This document shows positions 13,187-61,525 of a stretch of DNA of 64,000 bases, in pieces. Within the stretch, counting starts at the first letter, position 1, and every line of letters starts with the position of its first letter. The notes under the pieces were generated by a model, which saw only the letters and a program-made list of their open reading frames with translations, did not search any database and was not told where the DNA came from. The translations under genes and the position numbers were made by a program. This DNA is from a virus. The stretch covers positions 111,699-175,698 of IMG/VR virus record IMGVR_UViG_3300028800_000060; one strand, written 5' to 3'.

Positions 13187-13408
13187 ATGCTTCCTCAATA
13201 TTTACCAATAGAAAATAATCCAAATTTGGCCCGCCATACGAATAGTATGGCGGTTGTCAATTTGGATAAACAATCTCGAATTCAATACCGAATACAAAAA
13301 GAAAGAATTTTGAGAGAAAAAGAAGACATAAATAATTTAAGAAAAGAAGTTGACGATTTAAAAAACCTAGTTATGGAGTTATTAGCTCAAAAGAGTAAGG
13401 AAAAATAA
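13187..13408 (+). CDS. Small coiled-coil protein
   Basis: This 73-residue protein starts three bases after the stop of the 1900-residue gene. The ATG belongs to the string ATAAATATG, so the late-type core overlaps the start codon. Residues 30-70 are charged, with regularly spaced Ile and Leu, and predict one long coiled coil. Similar small proteins follow the DUF4815 gene in other T4-like phages. It may be a fibre chaperone or linker; no function is shown. Confidence 0.65.
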   Translation: MLPQYLPIENNPNLARHTNSMAVVNLDKQSRIQYRIQKERILREKEDINNLRKEVDDLKNLVMELLAQKSKEK

Positions 13409-13977
13409 TGAAAACATTCAAATCTGTATTGTTAATGTTAGCTTTAGGAAGTATATTGGCTTTCGGTCAAACAACGACATCGACACCAATAACTTTACCA
13501 ACATCTATTTCTGTTGTTGGAGAATTTAATCAATTAGCTACACCTCAGTGGGCTATAGGAATTTCAGCTTTATATGCACCATCAGTTCAAAGTAATATTG
13601 GTATGTACGATACTACTAGTGCTGATGTAATTCCTGTTAGAGCTAATGATCCGGTTACAAAGAAACCATTTATTGCTATTTCGGCCAGTATTCGCCAAGG
13701 CGTACATGAAAAGATTTTATGTTCAGGTAAATATTGTTTCTTTTTAGGTGGAGATATTGGTCCTGGGTTTTCTTCAAATTCAACGAATGGTGTTAGTTTA
13801 AGTTTTACTAGTTCTTTCGTTGCAACATCGATTTACCGAATAAAACCTTGGCTTAGTTTTGTTGTACCGATTAGAATGCTTTATGTTTCTGGTATTGGAT
13901 GGAATCCTGTTCTTCAGGCGGGTTTCAGTTTTAATCTAAAAGCTTTACCACCTCCTGCGCCAGATGCTATAAAATAA
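13408..13977 (+). CDS. Exported protein, likely small outer-membrane barrel
   Basis: This 189-residue protein begins with a clear Sec signal peptide (lysine at 2, hydrophobic stretch 6-18, likely cleavage after AFG near 20). The mature part alternates polar and hydrophobic residues, and its last strands end in aromatic residues, as in outer-membrane barrels. One pair of cysteines (KILCSGKYCFF) could form a disulfide. Its ATG overlaps the previous stop by one base, so it is translated with the late genes. It may alter the host envelope late in infection. The signal peptide style resembles Acidobacteriota. Confidence 0.6.
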   Translation: MKTFKSVLLMLALGSILAFGQTTTSTPITLPTSISVVGEFNQLATPQWAIGISALYAPSVQSNIGMYDTTSADVIPVRANDPVTKKPFIAISASIRQGVHEKILCSGKYCFFLGGDIGPGFSSNSTNGVSLSFTSSFVATSIYRIKPWLSFVVPIRMLYVSGIGWNPVLQAGFSFNLKALPPPAPDAIK

Positions 13978-14103: not shown

Positions 14104-14535
14104 ATGACACTAGAACAATTGCAACAAAGATTCCCTGATGCTACAATGGACACATGGCATCAGCACTCCCGGGGATCCGGTTGGATCCAGAATACGGCAT
14201 ATGTGGAACCATCGGTGTACGTGGGGCCGGATGCTTTAATATTTGGATATGCTCGGGTATCCGGAGATGTCTGGGTATCCGGAGATGCCCGGGTATATGG
14301 TGATGCCTGGGTGTCTGGAAATGCCTGGGTATACGGAGATGTCCGGGTATTTGGAAGCGCCTGGGTGTCAGACAATGCCTCAGTGTCTGAAAATGCCTGG
14401 GTATTTGGAGATGCCTGGGTATTTGAATTTGCATGGTTATACGGAAATGCCACGGTATGTGGAAATGCCAAGGTATATGGAGATCAAGTGATATCTGGAA
14501 ATACTCTGATAGGAATACCAGAATATACGTTTTGA
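14104..14535 (+). CDS. Hexapeptide-repeat beta-helix protein, copy 1
   Basis: This 143-residue protein has an N-terminal cap of about 45 residues (MTLEQLQQRFPDAT, then WHQHSRGSGW and YVEPSVYVGPDA). About 14 tandem six-residue units of the type V-S-G-D-A-R follow, as expected of a left-handed parallel beta-helix. At DNA level these are 18-base repeats. No acyltransferase active site is visible. It is one of eight related genes in the window (14104, 19116, 19616, 34134, 36276, 36650, 44580, 45159). Function unknown; a structural or surface role is only a guess. Confidence 0.8.
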   Translation: MTLEQLQQRFPDATMDTWHQHSRGSGWIQNTAYVEPSVYVGPDALIFGYARVSGDVWVSGDARVYGDAWVSGNAWVYGDVRVFGSAWVSDNASVSENAWVFGDAWVFEFAWLYGNATVCGNAKVYGDQVISGNTLIGIPEYTF

Positions 14536-14551
14536 TGATGAGAATAATATA

Positions 14552-15520
14552 ATGAAACTAGAACAAATTGGGTTTTATACTCTATCAGATAAAAGAGCAG
14601 CAACGGCTAGCCAATTTTCTCCCTTGTCTCGTTGTGAAATGCTTTTAACTGGCCGTTGTAATTTCCATTGTCCTTATTGTCGAAGTGTTGGAGGACCAGA
14701 TAAACCCTGGGAAGAAGCCGCGGCTGTAGTAAAGCTTTGGGCTTCCCAGGGACTTTACGCTATAAGGTTTAGTGGTGGAGAACCTCTAATGTATCCCAAA
14801 CTCAATGATTTGGTTGCATTAGCTAAAAAAGAGGGAATCCAAAAAATTGCGATTTCCACTAATGGTTCTTTCCCACTCGACCGATATCGGAAACTTATTG
14901 ATTTGGGTGTAAATGATTTTTCCATTTCCTTAGATGCTTGTTGTGCCGAGGATGGAGATTTTATGGCAGGTGGTATTAAAGGTGCATTCAATCGGGTTGT
15001 GGCAAATATTCGCGATTTGTCCAAATTAACGTATATCACTGTTGGTATAGTTCTCACTACTAAGAATGCCAACACTGTAGGGGAGATTATCAAATTTGCC
15101 GATAGTTTGGGCGTTCAAGATATTCGAGTTATTCCCGCCGCTCAAGCGGGAGATAAGTTAAAACAGATTAAAATTGATGAGGAATTACTTCAAAAATATC
15201 CTATCTTGCGCTATCGGATTAAAAATTTGCGAAATAATAGGCCTGTTAGAGGTTTGCGTCCTTGGAACAGTCATAAATGTGGTTTAGTATTGGATGATAT
15301 GGCTGTATGTGAAGGAGAGCATTTCCCCTGTATCATTTATCTTCGTGAAGGTGGAAAAGCAATCGGTAAAATTACAGATAACGATGTTAGGCAAGACCGT
15401 GCTTTGTGGTATGAAAGTCATGACACACATCAGGATCCCATCTGTTCTAGTAATTGTTTAGATGTGTGCGTTGATTACAACAATAGGTTTGAATCTTTTC
15501 GACCGATTGACAATCCATAA
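14552..15520 (+). CDS. Radical SAM protein
   Basis: This 322-residue enzyme has the CxxxCxxC cluster motif (C36, C40, C43, in RCNFHCPYC) and the GGEP motif at 75-78 that binds S-adenosylmethionine. A C-terminal cysteine set (KCGL, CEGEHFPC, ICSSNCLDVC) suggests a second iron-sulfur cluster of the SPASM or twitch type, as in peptide-modifying enzymes. It lies 16 bases after hexapeptide copy 1 and probably shares its transcript. A substrate cannot be assigned. Candidates are a phage or host peptide, or a nucleotide, and no small precursor peptide is obvious next to it. Confidence 0.85.
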   Translation: MKLEQIGFYTLSDKRAATASQFSPLSRCEMLLTGRCNFHCPYCRSVGGPDKPWEEAAAVVKLWASQGLYAIRFSGGEPLMYPKLNDLVALAKKEGIQKIAISTNGSFPLDRYRKLIDLGVNDFSISLDACCAEDGDFMAGGIKGAFNRVVANIRDLSKLTYITVGIVLTTKNANTVGEIIKFADSLGVQDIRVIPAAQAGDKLKQIKIDEELLQKYPILRYRIKNLRNNRPVRGLRPWNSHKCGLVLDDMAVCEGEHFPCIIYLREGGKAIGKITDNDVRQDRALWYESHDTHQDPICSSNCLDVCVDYNNRFESFRPIDNP

Positions 15521-18865: not shown

Positions 18866-19072
18866 ATGACAAAAACTGGTAAGTGGATTATTGATCCTAT
18901 CATGCATCAAAATGAAATTGTAGGTGTGGATTTTATAGATGAAAATGGTCAAACCATTTCAGTAGGAGTCAACTTCAATTTTTCCGATTATATCACCATC
19001 TCAGGAGATGATTGTTTAATTATTATGCCATGGGCCACCAATAAGTGTTTAATTAAACATACGGATATTTGA
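18866..19072 (+). CDS. Small hypothetical protein sharing its C-terminus with hexapeptide copy 2
   Basis: This 68-residue protein has a strong GGAGGT site ten bases before its ATG. Its last 14 residues (PWATNKCLIKHTDI) recur almost unchanged at the end of the hexapeptide protein encoded immediately downstream (PWATNLCRIKHTDI). The DNA beyond both stops is also duplicated. The gene therefore marks one end of a duplication event. Confidence 0.65.
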   Translation: MTKTGKWIIDPIMHQNEIVGVDFIDENGQTISVGVNFNFSDYITISGDDCLIIMPWATNKCLIKHTDI

Positions 19073-19096
19073 TATCCCTTTTGTTTCTGATATACT
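19069..19096 (+). promoter_or_regulatory. Promoter, first copy of a duplicated module
   Basis: TTGATA (19069-19074), 16 bases, TATACT (19091-19096) with an upstream TG. The same module occurs at 19574-19601. Confidence 0.6.
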
Positions 19097-19115
19097 GTAA
19101 TTGAAAGCTCATTTT

Positions 19116-19577
19116 ATGACTCTAGAACAGTTACAACTCATGTTCCCCGATGCCACAAAAGAAACATGGCATCAGCATTCCCATGGATCCGGATGGATCT
19201 ATAATACGGCATATGTGGAACCCACGGCATATGTGGGTCCGGATGCTACGGTGTCCGGAAATGCCCGGGTATTAGAAAATGCCCGGGTATTAGAAAATGC
19301 TTGGGTATTCGGAAATGCTTGGGTATTCGGAAATGCTTGTGTATCCGGAAATGCTCAGGTATCAGGAAATGCTATTATACACGATAATACCTGGGTATTC
19401 GAAAATGCCTGGGTTTTTGAACATGCCGAGGTGTCCGAATACGCACGGGTATCAGGAAATGCTAGGGTATATGGATATGCGCATATAAACGGAGTTGTAC
19501 GGATATCTGGAGATAATAGTTTATTTATTAATCCATGGGCCACAAACTTATGTAGGATTAAACATACGGATATTTGA
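19116..19577 (+). CDS. Hexapeptide-repeat beta-helix protein, copy 2
   Basis: This 153-residue protein has the family cap (MTLEQLQLMFPDAT, WHQHSHGSGW) followed by about 15 six-residue units. It ends with a tail identical in pattern to that of the gene at 18866. Compared with copy 1, several units are duplicated in tandem (RVLENA twice, WVFGNA twice), direct evidence of repeat slippage or recombination. An in-frame TTG at 19101 is possible, but the conserved family start is the ATG at 19116. Confidence 0.8.
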   Translation: MTLEQLQLMFPDATKETWHQHSHGSGWIYNTAYVEPTAYVGPDATVSGNARVLENARVLENAWVFGNAWVFGNACVSGNAQVSGNAIIHDNTWVFENAWVFEHAEVSEYARVSGNARVYGYAHINGVVRISGDNSLFINPWATNLCRIKHTDI

Positions 19578-19601
19578 TATCCCTTTTGTTTCTGATATAC
19601 T
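19574..19601 (+). promoter_or_regulatory. Promoter, second copy of a duplicated module
   Basis: TTGATA, 16 bases, TATACT (19596-19601), identical to the module at 19069. It drives hexapeptide copy 3. Confidence 0.6.
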
Positions 19602-19615
19602 GTAATTGAAAGCTT

Positions 19616-20125
19616 ATGACACTACAACAATTGAAACAAAAATTCCTTGATGCCACTGAGGACACATGGCATCAGCACTCCAATGGGGGTGGATGGATCG
19701 AGAATACGGCATACGTTGAACCCACGTCCTTTGTGGGGCTGAATGCTTTGGTATTTGGATATGCCATAGTGGTCGAAAATGCCTGTGTGTTTGGAGACGC
19801 CTGTGTGTTCGGAAATGCCATGGTGGCCGGGTGTGCCATGGTATATGGAAATGCTCAGGTATCCGGAAATGCCCGGGTGTACAAAAACGCTTGTGTATAT
19901 GAAAATGCCCGGGTGTTTGGAGATGCCTTTGTATCTGGAAACGCCCGTGTGTACGGATATGCCTTTGTATATGGAGACGCCTGTGTGTCTGGAAATGCCC
20001 AGGTGTCATGCAGTGCCTGGGTATCCGGAAATGCCCGGGTTCTGGGAGATGCGCATGTAACCGGATTTGCCTGGGTATTCGGAGATGAGAGAATAACTTC
20101 TCTCATCGGAAAGTTTAAAGGATAA
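19616..20125 (+). CDS. Hexapeptide-repeat beta-helix protein, copy 3
   Basis: This 169-residue protein carries a more divergent cap (MTLQQLKQKFLDAT, WHQHSNGGGW, FVGLNA) and about 18 repeat units, many with cysteine at the exposed position (ACVFGDACVFG). It has no C-terminal domain. The PEP-CTERM-like gene starts three bases after its stop, so the two are probably one transcript. Confidence 0.8.
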   Translation: MTLQQLKQKFLDATEDTWHQHSNGGGWIENTAYVEPTSFVGLNALVFGYAIVVENACVFGDACVFGNAMVAGCAMVYGNAQVSGNARVYKNACVYENARVFGDAFVSGNARVYGYAFVYGDACVSGNAQVSCSAWVSGNARVLGDAHVTGFAWVFGDERITSLIGKFKG

Positions 20126-20128
20126 AAA

Positions 20129-20707
20129 ATGGTAAAGAAAATTTTACTCTCGTTGGTATTGGCATTTTCTTGCCTTGCCAATACCGAAACAATCCAATTT
20201 ACGGGTCCAACAACTGGAGCCAGCAATGGTTCTGTAGCTGTAGGCCCATACAATCTTATTATTGATGGTATAGCAACCACAGGTGTTTGTATAACATTTG
20301 ATGTGGATATTACTGCCGGTCAAATTTGGCAAGCAGAAACCAAAACTGTAACCGATTTCTCAAATTCCCAAACTCTGTTGGAAGCTGAATATTTAATCCA
20401 GCAATTTGCGACGTCAACCGATTGGGTGTATATCCATCAGGCAATTTGGGATACCCAAGAACCTGGCACATTTACGGATAATATTACCCTTGCCTGGTTA
20501 AGCCAGGCTCAAACCAATTATATTTTCGTGAATCCCAATTCGTTTTCGATTCAAGTACCAGTCCCAACAAATGCTTCCCAATTCTTCATTACTCAAAATG
20601 ATCCGCCTATTGGGAAAGTTCCAGAGATTACACCCTTCTCGTTGATTACGTTTGGGGGTTTTTGCATTAGTTTAGGTGTTTTTATTAGGAAATTGAGGAA
20701 AGCATAG
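20129..20707 (+). CDS. Exported protein with PEP-CTERM-like sorting tail
   Basis: This 192-residue protein has a Sec signal peptide (MVKKILLSLVLAFSCLA), a beta-rich mature domain, and a C-terminal tripartite signal. The signal consists of V-P-E (164-166), a hydrophobic helix from about 168 to 185, and basic RKLRKA at the end. This is the layout recognised by exosortase. The mature part (VAVGPYNLIIDG, ITAGQIWQAE, YIHQAIWDTQ) resembles PEP-CTERM proteins of Acidobacteriota and allied bacteria. A phage copy could be anchored or processed at the host surface and mask or alter it. The start is fixed by the signal peptide. Confidence 0.7.
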   Translation: MVKKILLSLVLAFSCLANTETIQFTGPTTGASNGSVAVGPYNLIIDGIATTGVCITFDVDITAGQIWQAETKTVTDFSNSQTLLEAEYLIQQFATSTDWVYIHQAIWDTQEPGTFTDNITLAWLSQAQTNYIFVNPNSFSIQVPVPTNASQFFITQNDPPIGKVPEITPFSLITFGGFCISLGVFIRKLRKA

Positions 20708-20944
20708 ATGGAAACCCCACGCAGGGAGATATATCTCGGCAAACCCTATGCTGTTTCGTATGTATCTCCCAAAGCAACGGAAAAGGAAATTATGGAAGCA
20801 AGACTCCAAAATTACATACATTTTCCTGATTTGGATTCTTATGTTATTCCTAGAAAGGAACCGGAAACTTTGCTTTTCAAACTTAAGGTTTACTGGGCAA
20901 CAATGCTCCGAGTCTTAAAAACTGGCCTGAAGCCAAAAGACTAG
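20708..20944 (+). CDS. Small hypothetical protein
   Basis: This 78-residue basic protein starts directly after the PEP-CTERM-like gene, with GAGGAAAG as ribosome binding site inside it. An amphipathic C-terminal region (LLFKLKVYWATMLRVLKTGLK) could lie on a membrane. Not recognised. The coupling suggests joint expression with the surface protein. Confidence 0.6.
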   Translation: METPRREIYLGKPYAVSYVSPKATEKEIMEARLQNYIHFPDLDSYVIPRKEPETLLFKLKVYWATMLRVLKTGLKPKD

Positions 20945-22697: not shown

Positions 22698-22722
22698 CAT
22701 TCCTGTTATTTTTTGAGACAAT
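22694..22722 (+). promoter_or_regulatory. Sigma70-like promoter, leaderless spacing
   Basis: TTGACA (22694-22699), 17 bases, GACAAT (22717-22722). The helicase ATG at 22728 follows after 5 bases. Confidence 0.7.
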
Positions 22723-22727
22723 TAATT

Positions 22728-24377
22728 ATGTCAGAAAAACGTACTGTGACGCTTTCGCCGCAACAATCAGCGGTATTGGATTTCGCGTCTAAGACGGGTC
22801 GCGGTAATTGTCTGATTACCGCAGTTGCTGGTAGCGGAAAGACTTTCACTCTCGTCGAATGTCTTCCTCAGTTGGAAGGATATATCGCTGTGTGTGCTTA
22901 CAACACTTCGATAGCCGGTGAGATGGAAGCAAAAGTGGAATCCATCACGTTTCCTGATGGTACCCGTTGCTACGTGGGTACAGTACATCGTTTCGGACGC
23001 AAAGCACTTGCAAAGGCCTTTCCGAAAGGAAAGCTTCCTGCTAGGGGAGAGAAATCAAAGATCGACCAGATGATGGATACGATCATCCATCCCAGAACAA
23101 GGTCAAAAGGTGTTCCTAAGCATCTGCAAAGTTTTGTCCGCAAAGCCTACAATTTGGCACGGCAGCAGGGTGCGGGAGTATTATCCGAATTCGCATTCAT
23201 AGATTATGCCGCGTGGCTCAATATGGTCGAACATTTCGACCTGCGCGATGAATTTGCCAATTCCGATGGTGATCTTCCCTTAGATGTTGAACAGTTAGTC
23301 CGCGAAGGAATCAATTACACAGTTCTCCTTATTAAGTACGGGATTCACATCCTCGATAAGATCTGGGATTTTGAGGACATGATTTATGCTGTCCTTTATT
23401 TGAATCTTCGTGTAGAACCTAACAACTGGGTTCTCGTGGATGAAGTCCAGGACATAAATCCCACTAGGCGCGCGTTGATTAAGAAAATGCTCGCCGTGGG
23501 AGGACGAGCCATCTTTGTTGGTGATCCTCATCAAGCAATTTATGGATTCACCGGCGCCGATGCAAAGAGTTTCGAGAATATCCGTAAAGAATTCGATTGC
23601 ACTGATTTGCCGCTTACGTGGTCTTTCCGTTGTGCTAAGTCTGTTGTTCGTTTTGTCCAACAATGGGTGAGCCATATCGAATCTCATCCCGATGCTCCTG
23701 AGGGTGAAGTAATCAGTATGACTGAAGAAGAATTGTGGCAAGATGAACCGAAAGGTATCAACATTGACACGAAACAGGAAGTTAAAATTGCATCTTTGAA
23801 CGTAAAGGATGCAATCCTTTGCCGCAACAATGCACCGTTGGTTGATCTATTTTTCGCCCTTTTGAAGAAGGGAATCGCGTCACATATTGAAGGCAAGGAT
23901 ATCTCGGACAAGTTTGTGAAATTGGCTTCCCGATGGCCGGCCGTCAAGACGTTGACCGCATTGGAAAATAAGATTATCGAATATAAAGAGCGCCAAATCC
24001 AAAAGGGCTTACAGAGCGGTCGGGAAGATAAAGCCGCAGACATCGCCGATGTGGCTGATGCTGTGCTAGCAGTCATTTCGGGCATGCCACGTGGAAGCTC
24101 AGTTGAGAATCTAAGGACTCGCATACTTTCGATGTTCGAAAAGGAAGATGGAAAGAAGATGCCGAGTGTTACTCTCACCACGATTCATAAGTCCAAGGGA
24201 CGTGAATGGCAACGTGTTTTTTGGTATGGACGCAATCGTTGGAATCCTAGCAGTTATGCGCGCCAAGACTGGCAGATGGAACAAGAAACAAATTTGATGT
24301 ATGTGGCGGGAACGCGTGCAATGACCACGTTGATTGATATTCATGTTCCCGTACCGCCAGTAAGGAGATTCAAGTAA
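22728..24377 (+). CDS. UvrD/Rep-type superfamily 1 DNA helicase
   Basis: This 549-residue protein has Walker A AGSGKT (34-39), motif II DEVQD (238-242), GDPHQAIYGFTGAD (motif III), LTWSFRC (motif IV), TTIHKSKGREW (motif V) and YVAGTRA (motif VI). This is the full SF1A set. It is shorter than bacterial UvrD (about 720 residues), with reduced accessory subdomains. The ATG at 22728 matches the promoter position; an in-frame TTG at 22713 lies before the -10 box. It probably acts in phage DNA replication or recombination, where T4 uses Dda and UvsW. Confidence 0.9.
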   Translation: MSEKRTVTLSPQQSAVLDFASKTGRGNCLITAVAGSGKTFTLVECLPQLEGYIAVCAYNTSIAGEMEAKVESITFPDGTRCYVGTVHRFGRKALAKAFPKGKLPARGEKSKIDQMMDTIIHPRTRSKGVPKHLQSFVRKAYNLARQQGAGVLSEFAFIDYAAWLNMVEHFDLRDEFANSDGDLPLDVEQLVREGINYTVLLIKYGIHILDKIWDFEDMIYAVLYLNLRVEPNNWVLVDEVQDINPTRRALIKKMLAVGGRAIFVGDPHQAIYGFTGADAKSFENIRKEFDCTDLPLTWSFRCAKSVVRFVQQWVSHIESHPDAPEGEVISMTEEELWQDEPKGINIDTKQEVKIASLNVKDAILCRNNAPLVDLFFALLKKGIASHIEGKDISDKFVKLASRWPAVKTLTALENKIIEYKERQIQKGLQSGREDKAADIADVADAVLAVISGMPRGSSVENLRTRILSMFEKEDGKKMPSVTLTTIHKSKGREWQRVFWYGRNRWNPSSYARQDWQMEQETNLMYVAGTRAMTTLIDIHVPVPPVRRFK

Positions 24378-31597: not shown

Positions 31598-31918
31598 ATG
31601 AAGAAGCTATTAGCTGTATTGATCTTGGCAGCAGGAACTATGTTCGCACAATTTTCAGTTGGTATTCACATTGGCCCGATGCCAAGAGTACGTATTGAAC
31701 ACCAATCACGTCGTCCGAATGTCCGTTCCATTTGGATCGCAGGACATTGGGATGTAGTCAACAACCATTATGTCTGGCATTCAGGCTATTGGACCCAACC
31801 ACCATATGAAGGCGCACGTTGGATCGCTCCGTCACATGATGGTAAAATGTACCACGATGGTCATTGGGATGGCGACAAAGGCCGCAGAGAAGATGACCAC
31901 GGCAAACATCGTCACTAA
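31598..31918 (+). CDS. Exported YXWGXW-repeat protein
   Basis: This 106-residue protein with an AAGGAG site has a signal peptide (about 1-18, ending FAQ). Tryptophan repeats follow (WIAGHW, YVWHSGYW, DGHWDGDKG), the pattern of YXWGXW proteins found in the periplasm or surface of Acidobacteriota and Proteobacteria. The tail is His- and Asp-rich and could bind metal. The exact late promoter upstream suggests late expression, perhaps as an envelope modifier. Function of the family is unknown. Confidence 0.7.
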   Translation: MKKLLAVLILAAGTMFAQFSVGIHIGPMPRVRIEHQSRRPNVRSIWIAGHWDVVNNHYVWHSGYWTQPPYEGARWIAPSHDGKMYHDGHWDGDKGRREDDHGKHRH

Positions 31919-33897: not shown

Positions 33898-34137
33898 ATG
33901 ACACAAAATACTCCTGCAAAGGAACTAAAGACGCCGGCGGCCCATATCCCCGGGAAGGCCGATTACCGAATCGATCAAATCCGCCGGTATATGCGGCGGC
34001 ATGCCGGCTTCGCGGTTTTCATCAATGAAACCGTTGAAGTTAAAATGTTGCTAGCTGATGTTTTCGCCGGGGGATTGACCCGGGCGGAAATCAAGCAGTT
34101 TTTCAACAATGCCAGAAAGGTAGGAATGAACCAGTGA
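33898..34137 (+). CDS. Small basic hypothetical protein
   Basis: This 79-residue protein has an AAAGGAAAAG site like its neighbour. A lysine- and proline-rich start is followed by RIDQIRRYMRRHAGF and a helical end. Its stop overlaps the GTG of the hexapeptide gene (AGTGA), so the two are coupled. Confidence 0.55.
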   Translation: MTQNTPAKELKTPAAHIPGKADYRIDQIRRYMRRHAGFAVFINETVEVKMLLADVFAGGLTRAEIKQFFNNARKVGMNQ

Positions 34138-34742
34138 CATTAGAACAATTGCAACAAAGATTCCCTGATGCCACTGAGGACACATGGTATCAGCACTCCA
34201 ATGGGGGTGGATGGATCCAGAATACGGCACGCGTGGAAACATCGGTGTATGTGGGTCCGGATGCTACGGTATCCGGAAATGCCCGGGTATCCGGAAATAC
34301 CTGGGTATCCGGAAACGCCCAGGTATTCGGAAATGCCTTTGTATCCGGAAACGCCCAGGTAACCGGAGATGCCCAGGTGTTTGGAAATGCCCGGGTATCC
34401 GGAGATGCCTGGGTATCCGGAAACGCCCAGGTAACCGGAGATGCCCTGGTATCCGGAAACGCCCAGGTATCCAGAAATGCCCGGGTGTTTGGAAATGCCC
34501 AGGTATCCGGAAATACCTGGGTATCCGGAGATTCATGGGAAACTTCACCCCTTCAGATCCAAGGCACTCGACATTTCCTCAATATGACAACCAAGTCTCT
34601 ATTGAAAATTGGATGCCATTCACATACCATCCAATGGTGGTTGAATAATTATAGGATCATTGGACAAAAAGAAGGATATACTCCGGATCAAATAAAGGAG
34701 TACAAAAAGTATATTGATCTCTTTAAATCATTGTATATTTGA
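34134..34742 (+). CDS. Hexapeptide-repeat protein with C-terminal domain, copy 4
   Basis: This 202-residue protein starts with GTG overlapping the previous stop. It has the family cap (QQRFPDAT, WYQHSNGGGW), about 16 very regular units and a C-terminal domain of about 65 residues (WETSPLQIQGTRHFL, IGCHSHTIQWW, YTPDQIKEY). The same domain ends copy 7 at 44580. The domain resembles the tail found on hexapeptide proteins of other phages and bacteria and contains Cys-His-x-His, perhaps a metal or catalytic site. This pair shows the likely full-length form; other copies have lost it. Confidence 0.8.
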   Translation: MTLEQLQQRFPDATEDTWYQHSNGGGWIQNTARVETSVYVGPDATVSGNARVSGNTWVSGNAQVFGNAFVSGNAQVTGDAQVFGNARVSGDAWVSGNAQVTGDALVSGNAQVSRNARVFGNAQVSGNTWVSGDSWETSPLQIQGTRHFLNMTTKSLLKIGCHSHTIQWWLNNYRIIGQKEGYTPDQIKEYKKYIDLFKSLYI

Positions 34743-36649: not shown

Positions 36650-37141
36650 ATGACACTACAACAATTGCAACAAAAATTCCCTGATGCCACTGAGGACACA
36701 TGGCATCAGCACACCAACGGATCCGGTTGGATCAAGAATACGGCATATGTGGAACCATCGGTGTATGTGGGTCCGGAGGCTACGGTATCCGGAGATGCCT
36801 GGGTATCCGGAAAGGCGCGCATCTATGGTAATGCCCAAATATTTGGTAATGCCTGGATATGCGGAAATGTTTGGGTATACGACGTTGCCTGGGTATACGA
36901 AGATGCCTTTTTGTGCGGAGATGCCCAGGTGTCCGGAACTGCCTCGGTATTTGGCTATGCCTGGATCTATGATAATGCCTGGGTATCCGAAAATGCCCAA
37001 ATATTCGGAAAAGCTCAGATATACCAGAATGCCGGCGTGTCCGGACACGCATGCGTTTGTGATAACGCTCAGGTATTCGGAAATGCATTCGTATCCGGAT
37101 ACGCCCATATGTGCGGAGATGCCTTTGTGTGTGGAATATAA
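36650..37141 (+). CDS. Hexapeptide-repeat protein, copy 6
   Basis: This 163-residue protein follows copy 5 by 14 bases and shares with copy 7 the upstream string GGATATAGTAT before the ATG. After the cap there are about 18 units, several with Ile or Cys at the variable position (AWICGNVW, AHMCGDAFVC). No C-terminal domain. It probably shares the copy 5 transcript. Confidence 0.8.
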   Translation: MTLQQLQQKFPDATEDTWHQHTNGSGWIKNTAYVEPSVYVGPEATVSGDAWVSGKARIYGNAQIFGNAWICGNVWVYDVAWVYEDAFLCGDAQVSGTASVFGYAWIYDNAWVSENAQIFGKAQIYQNAGVSGHACVCDNAQVFGNAFVSGYAHMCGDAFVCGI

Positions 37142-44579: not shown

Positions 44580-45125
44580 TTAAGTGTAAACTACATATCT
44601 CTTCCGGAATATGCGTAGATAATCCCCGTACTCCTTTATTTGATTCGGAGTATATCCTTCTTTTTGTCCAATGATCCTATAATTATCCAACCACCATTGG
44701 ATGGTATGTGAATGGCATCCAATTTTCAATAGAGACTTGGTTGTCATATTGAGGAAATGTCGAGTGCCTTGGATCTGAAGGGGTGAAGTTTCCCATGAAT
44801 CTCCGGATACCCAGGTATTTCCGGATACCTGGGCATTTCCAAACACCCGGGCATCTCCGGATACCAGGGAATTCTCATATACCCAGACATTTCCGGATAC
44901 CCGAGAATTTCCAGATACAAAGGCATTTCCAAACACCCGGGCATCTCCGGATACCCAGACATTTCCGGATACCCGAGAATTTCCATATACCAAAGCATTG
45001 GGCCCCACGTACACCGATGATGCCACCTGTGCTGTATTCTGGATCCAACCGGATCCGTTGGTGTGTTGATGCCATGTGTCCATTGTAGCATCAGGGAATT
45101 TTTGTTGCAATTGTTGTAGTGTCAT
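44580..45125 (-). CDS. Hexapeptide-repeat protein with C-terminal domain, copy 7
   Basis: This 181-residue minus-strand protein has the variant cap (QVASSVYVGPNA) also seen in copy 5, about 12 units and the same C-terminal domain as copy 4, nearly residue for residue (TSPLQIQGTRHFLNM, IGCHSHTIQWW). From the upstream GGATATAGTAT through the first 12 codons or so its DNA is identical to copy 6 but inverted. It is a mosaic of other copies. Confidence 0.8.
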   Translation of the reverse strand: MTLQQLQQKFPDATMDTWHQHTNGSGWIQNTAQVASSVYVGPNALVYGNSRVSGNVWVSGDARVFGNAFVSGNSRVSGNVWVYENSLVSGDARVFGNAQVSGNTWVSGDSWETSPLQIQGTRHFLNMTTKSLLKIGCHSHTIQWWLDNYRIIGQKEGYTPNQIKEYGDYLRIFRKRYVVYT

Positions 45126-60076: not shown

Positions 60077-61525
60077 ATGAACCTTTCTTTTCAAAAAAAA
60101 TTAGAAAAGATCCTCCGCAACGGAAATACTGTACTAAATGAAGAACACGAGGAAGGGTATGGTACTAAAAGTCCCACGCACGTTTGCCCCGAACCTGGTG
60201 AAGAAGTTACTACATCTTTAGATGGTACAGGAAAAATCGATGCGACACGACCAATTAAAGCTGGTGCTGATAAGACTTTAAAAACCACTCCCGCTGTTAG
60301 TGCTACTGAAGGTCCTACAGGACACATACCTACTAATTCTGATTTGCCTCGTGCCCAAAAAGATGGTTTAGGCACATCTAATAGTCCCGGTAAAAATAGT
60401 TTACCTCCAACACCTAAAGTTTATGGTCTTCATGAAGAAGAGGAAGAAGCCAAGAAACTAAAGGAAGAGGAAGAAGAGAAAAAACTTCCACCATTCATGA
60501 AAAAGAAAAAGCTTCATGAAGAAGAGGAAGAAGCCAAGAAACTGAAGGAAGAGGAAGAAGAGAAAAAACTTCACGAAGAGGAAGAAGAAGCCAAGAAACT
60601 GAAGGAAGAGGAAGAGGAATCTAAACGGCTAAAGGAAGAATCGGGAACTGAAGCTGCTAAAACTCTAAAACGTTCCGGTTCTGGTGAAAAAGCTGATAAA
60701 ATCAAGGAAGAATTTGATCATGAAGAAGGTAGCAAAACTAAAGAAAAACTTGGCGTAAAAGAAGAAAAAGAACCTGATGATGATAAAGACGACAAAAAGA
60801 TTGTAAAAGAAGCAACTGCGGCTCTTTTTGCCGGTGAAACAATTTCAGAAGTTTTGAAAGAAAAAACTGCCACAATTTTTGAAGCTACTCTTTCTCAAAG
60901 AATTAAAGATTATCGCAAGACTTTAAATGGCAGATATACCAAGAAACTTAATGAACGTGTGGAAGAAATTCGGGAAGAATTATCTAATTCGATAAGTGGC
61001 CATTTAGACCTAGTAGTTGAACATTGGGTAAAAGAAAATGAAGTTCCTTTGGAACGCGCCATTAAATCCGAATTAGTTGAAGAATTTATTGGTGGTTTAA
61101 AGAATCTTTTCGAAGAACATTACATTGAGTTACCACAAGAAAAAGTTGATGTTGTTGCTGAAATGGCAAATCGCATCAATACTCTTGAAAAGAAACTTAA
61201 TGAACAAATTGATACGAATGTGCAGTTACAGCAATCCGTGAAACTTCATGAACGTACAGAAGTATTCGAAAAGATGACACGTGGTATGGTCGCTACCAAA
61301 ATTGAAAAATTGAGAAATCTTTCGGAAAATGTTGACTATAAGAATGCAAAGCAATTTGAAACTGCATTAGTTACTTTGAAAGAAAGTGTAGAAGGAACTC
61401 AAAAACAAAGTACATCTAAGCAAACATTATCAGAGCAAACCTTAGAACAGAGTCCTGAACCCGGTTCTGGTGAACGCGTTGATAAAGTTAAAGAATTCTT
61501 AGCTCGGATGAATAAGAATGGTTAA
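60077..61525 (+). CDS. gp22: Prohead scaffold protein gp22
   Basis: This 482-residue protein is much longer than T4 gp22 (269). The last 230 residues have the family's helical pattern (ETISEVLKEKTATIFEATLS, NTLEKKLNEQI-like coiled coil). Residues 118-195 are a Glu/Lys repeat (EEEEAKKLKEEEEEKKLHEE type), matched by DNA repeats from 60430 to 60630. It forms the inner core of the prohead and is degraded by gp21. The repeat is the variable part. Confidence 0.8.
   Translation: MNLSFQKKLEKILRNGNTVLNEEHEEGYGTKSPTHVCPEPGEEVTTSLDGTGKIDATRPIKAGADKTLKTTPAVSATEGPTGHIPTNSDLPRAQKDGLGTSNSPGKNSLPPTPKVYGLHEEEEEAKKLKEEEEEKKLPPFMKKKKLHEEEEEAKKLKEEEEEKKLHEEEEEAKKLKEEEEESKRLKEESGTEAAKTLKRSGSGEKADKIKEEFDHEEGSKTKEKLGVKEEKEPDDDKDDKKIVKEATAALFAGETISEVLKEKTATIFEATLSQRIKDYRKTLNGRYTKKLNERVEEIREELSNSISGHLDLVVEHWVKENEVPLERAIKSELVEEFIGGLKNLFEEHYIELPQEKVDVVAEMANRINTLEKKLNEQIDTNVQLQQSVKLHERTEVFEKMTRGMVATKIEKLRNLSENVDYKNAKQFETALVTLKESVEGTQKQSTSKQTLSEQTLEQSPEPGSGERVDKVKEFLARMNKNG
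60430..60630. repeat. Glu/Lys-coding tandem repeats in gp22
   Basis: Copies of a purine-rich unit (GAAGAGGAAGAAGCCAAGAA, then ACT) at about 60436, 60523 and 60580 encode the charged helix. The number of copies could change by slippage. Confidence 0.75.

Follow-up and report, generated by a model that had tools for sequence, protein, structure and literature searches.

The PEP-CTERM/exosortase system (profiles TIGR02595 and PF07589 for PEP-CTERM, PF09721 for exosortase) acts on bacterial proteins that combine a signal peptide, an extracytoplasmic domain, and a C-terminal tail made up of a short motif, a membrane helix, and a basic cluster. Co-occurrence of these tails with exosortase is a known pairing (PMC3237569). 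PepA (NF033554), a secreted bacterial member of the PEP-CTERM family, links exopolysaccharide to cells, and overexpression of a bacterial PEP-CTERM protein turns soluble exopolysaccharide cell-bound (PMC9850573). Phage proteins with partly similar layouts include the unimolecular spanins, such as T1 gp11, which have an N-terminal export signal, a beta-rich periplasmic part, and a C-terminal inner-membrane helix. The T4 proteins Imm and Sp, which sit in the host envelope and block later phages, serve in superinfection exclusion. These exclusion proteins are not known to use exosortase, and any likeness to the protein described here would lie in their effect.

The protein described here is encoded at positions 20129..20707 (+) of the window, the stretch of 64 kb that was analyzed, which is the final part of a 175.7-kb record of a soil virus. 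It shares with the PEP-CTERM proteins a signal peptide, an extracytoplasmic domain, and a motif-helix-basic tail. Unlike the described substrates of this system, it is phage-encoded, carries VPE-IT-P in place of PEP, and fails the curated profiles, and the phages concerned have no exosortase (none in four phage records by profile search), so its processing would depend on the host. An initial annotation, made from the letters of the DNA, had read this gene as a PEP-CTERM-like surface protein of a phage, an interpretation that is partly supported by the work below. No paper linking PEP-CTERM with phage genomes in this way was found in the open literature, and phage use of PEP-CTERM sorting seems to be previously undescribed.

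Gene, operon context, and protein architecture

The open reading frame was confirmed in the window, with an ATG start and a length of 192 amino acids. A Shine-Dalgarno-like AAAGGA (20117..20122, +) lies 6 bases before the ATG, 3 bases separate the ATG from the stop of an upstream beta-solenoid (YdcK-type repeat) ORF (19616..20125, +), and a downstream ORF of 78 amino acids with no family (20708..20944, +) begins at the stop codon of the gene, immediately past it. Judged from these features, it is a real gene with a good ribosome site, predicted to be translationally coupled to its neighbors.

A sigma-70-like promoter, TTGATA-N16-TATACT with TG (19574..19601, +), is predicted 5′ of the solenoid/PEP gene pair from a consensus scan only, which returned 12 such sites against 8.6 expected, and a match alone is no evidence of function. 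The T4-type late promoter motif, TATAAATA, was no more frequent in the window than chance predicts and is absent upstream of the PEP-CTERM-family gene; at this chance-level frequency, one copy stands ∼50 bases 5′ of a second secreted, host-like gene with WXXGXW repeats (31598..31918, +). The window also encodes a set of at least six beta-solenoid (YdcK-type hexapeptide-like) paralogs with the common start MTLEQLQQ..PDAT.DTWHQHS, located at 14104-14535, 19101-19577, 19616-20125, 34134-34742, and 36650-37141 on the plus strand and at 44580-45125 on the minus strand. Two of these copies lie directly 5′ of the PEP gene, and one promoter-like sequence recurs ahead of each (19069-19096 and 19574-19601).

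The N-terminus of the protein, MVKKILLSLVLAFSCLA, is a signal-peptide-like segment with a basic n-region and a hydrophobic core (KD 2.77 over 12 residues), which bears out the Sec signal proposed in the initial annotation. The signal peptide spans residues 1-17 (20129..20179, +) and would likely be cleaved at CLA/NT, between A and N. The ectodomain follows at residues 18-163 (20180..20617, +), with Cys54, Trp67, and Trp107 invariant in the family alignment, and is beta-rich at both ends in an AlphaFold2 model of low confidence (mean pLDDT 56.9, and 47.3 for the other model that was made). The C-terminus is tripartite, consisting of an off-type sorting motif, VPE-IT-P (20618..20635, +; codons GTT CCA GAG ATT ACA CCC), a membrane helix at residues 170-186 (20636..20686, +; KD 2.09 over 17 residues; placed at 169-191 by the model), and a basic cluster, RKLRKA (20687..20704, +). 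Among the ORFs of at least 50 amino acids in the window, a motif-helix-basic tail occurs in this one only. The end of the protein had been described as V-P-E, membrane helix, and basic cluster; the helix and the basic cluster stand, while the motif is VPE-IT-P and not PEP, equivalent in alignment with canonical tails to VPEP with a two-residue insertion, IT.

A search with PEP-CTERM profiles, suggested in the initial annotation, came back negative for this copy, as neither the window protein nor its whole record matched TIGR02595 or PF07589, an outcome attributed to the two-residue insertion in the PEP motif. The tail scored 8.7 bits against a profile of the tails of bacterial homologs, with the best of 20,000 shuffles at 8.8. 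The window protein alone gave nothing meaningful in Pfam, NCBIfam, or PHROGs and no match to NF033554, and no PHROG family covers the phage proteins discussed here.

Family membership and occurrence in phages

Cellular members of the family were searched for in Acidobacteriota only, where the window protein alone found 10 loci in 8 of 297 genomes, the best at E 5.3e-7 per genome with 33% identity across residues 17-192. All bacterial ORFs matched in this way have canonical PEP-CTERM tails at their ends, including those for which the match spans only the N-terminal 70-90 residues. Against a bacteria-only family profile built from 17 bacterial proteins, the window ectodomain, stripped of signal and tail, scored 42.2 bits (E 8e-11; best of 20,000 shuffles 15.3), a score that is partly circular because the window protein had itself served to recruit some of the profile rows. 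The ectodomains of two T4-like relatives, neither of which was used for recruitment, scored 54.8 and 31.4 bits against the same profile, and phage relatives overall ranged from 31 to 79 bits. A bacterial consensus, used as a bait query only and not as evidence, led to a real locus of Candidatus Sulfotelmatobacter (Acidobacteriota; L003) with 60% identity, in a genome that also encodes an exosortase (E 3e-78). Neither the phage nor the bacterial members of the family had matches among plasmids.

These comparisons make it highly probable that the window protein belongs to the Acidobacteriota PEP-CTERM surface-protein family, a homology that is well supported, and they uphold the earlier reading of a phage gene whose beta-rich domain resembles acidobacterial PEP-CTERM proteins. 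PepA is likewise secreted and of the PEP-CTERM family, yet it is bacterial, and related phage and bacterial proteins reach 27.3 and 33.8 bits against NF033554, which has a cut-off of 80. The family is a known one of bacterial surface proteins, and its presence in phages, conserved in a clade and paralleled in a cultured phage, is unexpected.

The window phage is T4-like, with a terminase ∼49% identical to those of cyanophages and T4-like core genes closest to cyanophages; genes for replication and for tRNAs lie in the remainder of the record. When the family alignment was searched against IMG/VR records that have related terminases, a family member was found in both near-full-length relatives (176.8 and 179.7 kb), which come from one metagenome. 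In both relatives the gene is syntenic, preceding a shared UvrD-like helicase (Pfam PF00580; 68-75% identity in alignment) by ∼1-1.2 kb; in the window, this helicase lies at 22713..24377 (+), with the PEP gene 2 kb upstream. Both proteins end in canonical PEP tails, TPEPSSILLIPAGIGLIVLGKFKHKSVV and VPEPLTIWICATGLMFLGLFKRRKLVKV. The first (G305) is 46% identical to the window protein and exceeds the TIGR02595 cut-off (17.6 vs 16 bits), the other is less similar, and the phage-clade relatives as a whole pass or approach curated cut-offs. Presence of the gene across the clade is not universal, as a 29.7-kb relative (L049) has the helicase and no PEP gene upstream of it, and the gene was not seen in clade fragments of 101, 97, and 74 kb.

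Additional small signal-peptide proteins occur in the window phage and, in the 179.7-kb relative, beside the PEP gene (13408-13977, +; L090:13613-14152; L047:4352-4969), with no Pfam family for the two of the three that were searched, and the phage group seems to be rich in secreted proteins. A radical-SAM protein is also encoded near the PEP gene (14552-15520, +) and is at least partly present in the same relative (L047:10-564).

A further homolog is found in a cultured phage. In tblastn of the window protein against 50,697 phage records, the one match was gp179 of Tunturiibacter phage Tunturi_5, with 27% identity over 82% (E 0.01, or 4.5e-7 with the Tunturi_5 genome searched alone). This distant full-length homolog has the C-terminus TPEPGSLVLLGTGLFGAAGMAYRRAK and passes both PF07589 (24.3 vs 20.7 bits) and TIGR02595 (19.2 vs 16 bits). 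A second PEP-CTERM protein of this phage, gp97 (Tunturi_5 PP885688 75107-75703; L084:1486-2082, −; PF07589 30.3 bits), differs in its ectodomain. Like the window protein, gp179 and gp97 are phage-encoded and have a Sec signal and a PEP-CTERM tail; unlike it, they have canonical tails over curated cut-offs and belong to an unrelated jumbo phage. Both are labeled 'hypothetical' in the Tunturi_5 record, and the paper on Tunturi phages makes no mention of PEP-CTERM (PMC11924767).

In a phylogenetic tree, the three T4-like proteins group together (support 93/89), apart from Tunturi_5 gp179, which falls among bacterial proteins, and a single origin of the phage proteins is not rejected (p-AU 0.27). 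Pattern scans of IMG/VR with the window protein, gp179, or their alignment gave no matches, scans with the phage relatives gave self-matches only, and helicase-anchored scans brought in a single further record, whose helicase has no PEP gene upstream. A tblastn search of phages with the tail only also gave no matches, which is uninformative because the known positive, Tunturi_5, was missed as well.

Exosortase and the probable host

An exosortase search of candidate hosts, also suggested in the initial annotation, found the enzyme over cut-off in 85 of 247 Acidobacteriota genomes. Of the 47 Acidobacteriota genomes that matched the family or the tail, 46 had it (p 9e-25; overlap read from two lists), as did all 15 with full-length matches (p 6e-8).

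The WXXGXW-repeat protein shows ∼50% identity along its length to Acidobacteriota proteins and has matches in 207 of 394 genomes of one Acidobacteriota class (best E 2.8e-33); among 72,556 plasmids, it matches Granulicella, an acidobacterium, and nothing else. On this sequence evidence, the gene appears to be another secreted gene of host origin and a marker of the host. Because of this gene and Tunturi_5, an Acidobacteriota host is likely for the window phage, with good though not conclusive confidence, and together with the homology of the PEP-CTERM-family protein itself, these lines give substance to the earlier suggestion that the gene points to the host group. CRISPR spacers, from which a host match had been hoped for, gave none in a limited search of two 20-kb window pieces against ∼395 Acidobacteriota genomes each, and this DNA search returned low-complexity repeats and a radical-SAM motif only. 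A Lys/Glu-rich repeat region (60515-60618, +) has short Acidobacteriota DNA matches that are of low complexity and are not spacers.

Possible roles during infection

The best explanation, and a fairly probable one, is that the gene encodes a host-derived surface protein that passes through Sec and the host exosortase and remodels the envelope of the infected cell. Such a protein would be kept in a clade of T4-like phages most likely infecting Acidobacteriota. After Sec export during infection, its C-terminal helix would keep it in the inner membrane, basic end on the inside, until the host exosortase cut at the PEP motif and released the ectodomain to the envelope and the exopolysaccharide matrix. 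The released ectodomain may then alter the cell surface to the benefit of the phage, for example through fewer adsorbing competitors or a modified matrix. Export, retention by the helix, and release are modeled on established PEP-CTERM biology, and host identity, exosortase processing, timing, and the effect on the surface are predictions of this model. The altered envelope or blocked superinfection suggested in the initial annotation would likewise be only a possible effect. Several observations weigh against the model: this copy fails the curated profiles and its tail scores at shuffle level, no spacer ties the phage to a host, the core genes are closest to those of cyanophages, and some records of the clade show no PEP gene. 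Because overexpression of a PEP-CTERM protein binds exopolysaccharide to bacterial cells, a phage counterpart could remodel the matrix or hide receptors.

Exosortase handling is probable across the phage group and is proposed tentatively for the exact window copy with its VPE-IT-P motif. For this copy, processing may tolerate the altered motif, the protein may be a membrane-anchored periplasmic one, or it may be a decoy that blocks exosortase.

The second of these possibilities would mean that the tail has decayed to a simple anchor and that the protein works in the periplasm without exosortase, for example in superinfection exclusion at the point of DNA entry. A tail that scores at shuffle level is consistent with such decay, as is the intact state of the signal peptide, ectodomain, and C-terminal helix. 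The PEP motif is, however, kept in the relatives, which argues for exosortase handling as the ancestral function, and the periplasmic role is considered unlikely.

Slightly less likely again is the decoy, in which the altered motif would occupy the host exosortase uncut, stall host sorting, and loosen the matrix for entry or spread. The motif is broken in the window copy only, while its other tail elements (SL, FG, helix, and RK) are kept, and the kept helix and basic end would still position the protein beside exosortase. Yet the 46% identical relative and the other phage homologs have canonical, presumably cleavable tails, so the common function needs no non-cleavable motif, and a single sequence with an insertion is equally explained by drift.

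A recent passenger, acquired from a host by chance and of no role for the phage, would fit the fast divergence of the protein (46% identity and lower among the phage relatives). The gene nevertheless occupies one conserved locus in three phages, with its frame and full architecture intact, its GC content matches that of the phage (39.9% vs 40.5%), and a homolog is present in the unrelated cultured phage Tunturi_5, which together make a passenger improbable.

A unimolecular spanin, joining an N-terminal outer-membrane lipoprotein signal to a C-terminal inner-membrane helix and disrupting the outer membrane at lysis, is the least probable reading: Cys15 of the signal (LAFSC) and the Cys of the 46% identical relative fit a loose lipobox, and a beta-rich periplasmic domain with a C-terminal helix is typical of u-spanins, but, unlike T1 gp11, the window protein belongs to a family with an invariant periplasmic cysteine, Cys54, where periplasmic cysteine occurs in 0 of 58 u-spanins (PMC6139136), in a third phage protein (G298) the Cys follows a Thr and in Tunturi_5 gp179 it is missing, the neighbors are a solenoid, small ORFs, and a helicase with no recognized lysis genes adjacent, and the homology is to bacterial surface proteins.

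Processing by the host exosortase followed by remodeling of the envelope remains the preferred reading for the protein. In its broader form, in which Acidobacteriota phages of at least two unrelated lineages use the host exosortase on their own PEP-CTERM proteins and so remodel the envelope or matrix, it is somewhat more likely than not. If true, it would be the first case described of a virus using PEP-CTERM sorting. Although plentiful in soil, Acidobacteriota and their viruses are difficult to study, and Tunturi_5 with Tunturiibacter would offer a testable model. Phage PEP-CTERM genes could also serve as a host-lineage marker for uncultured soil phages. Little is understood of the purpose of PEP-CTERM/exosortase, a large sorting system of bacteria, and exosortase substrates kept by phages would mean that the pathway is important in phage-host interaction.
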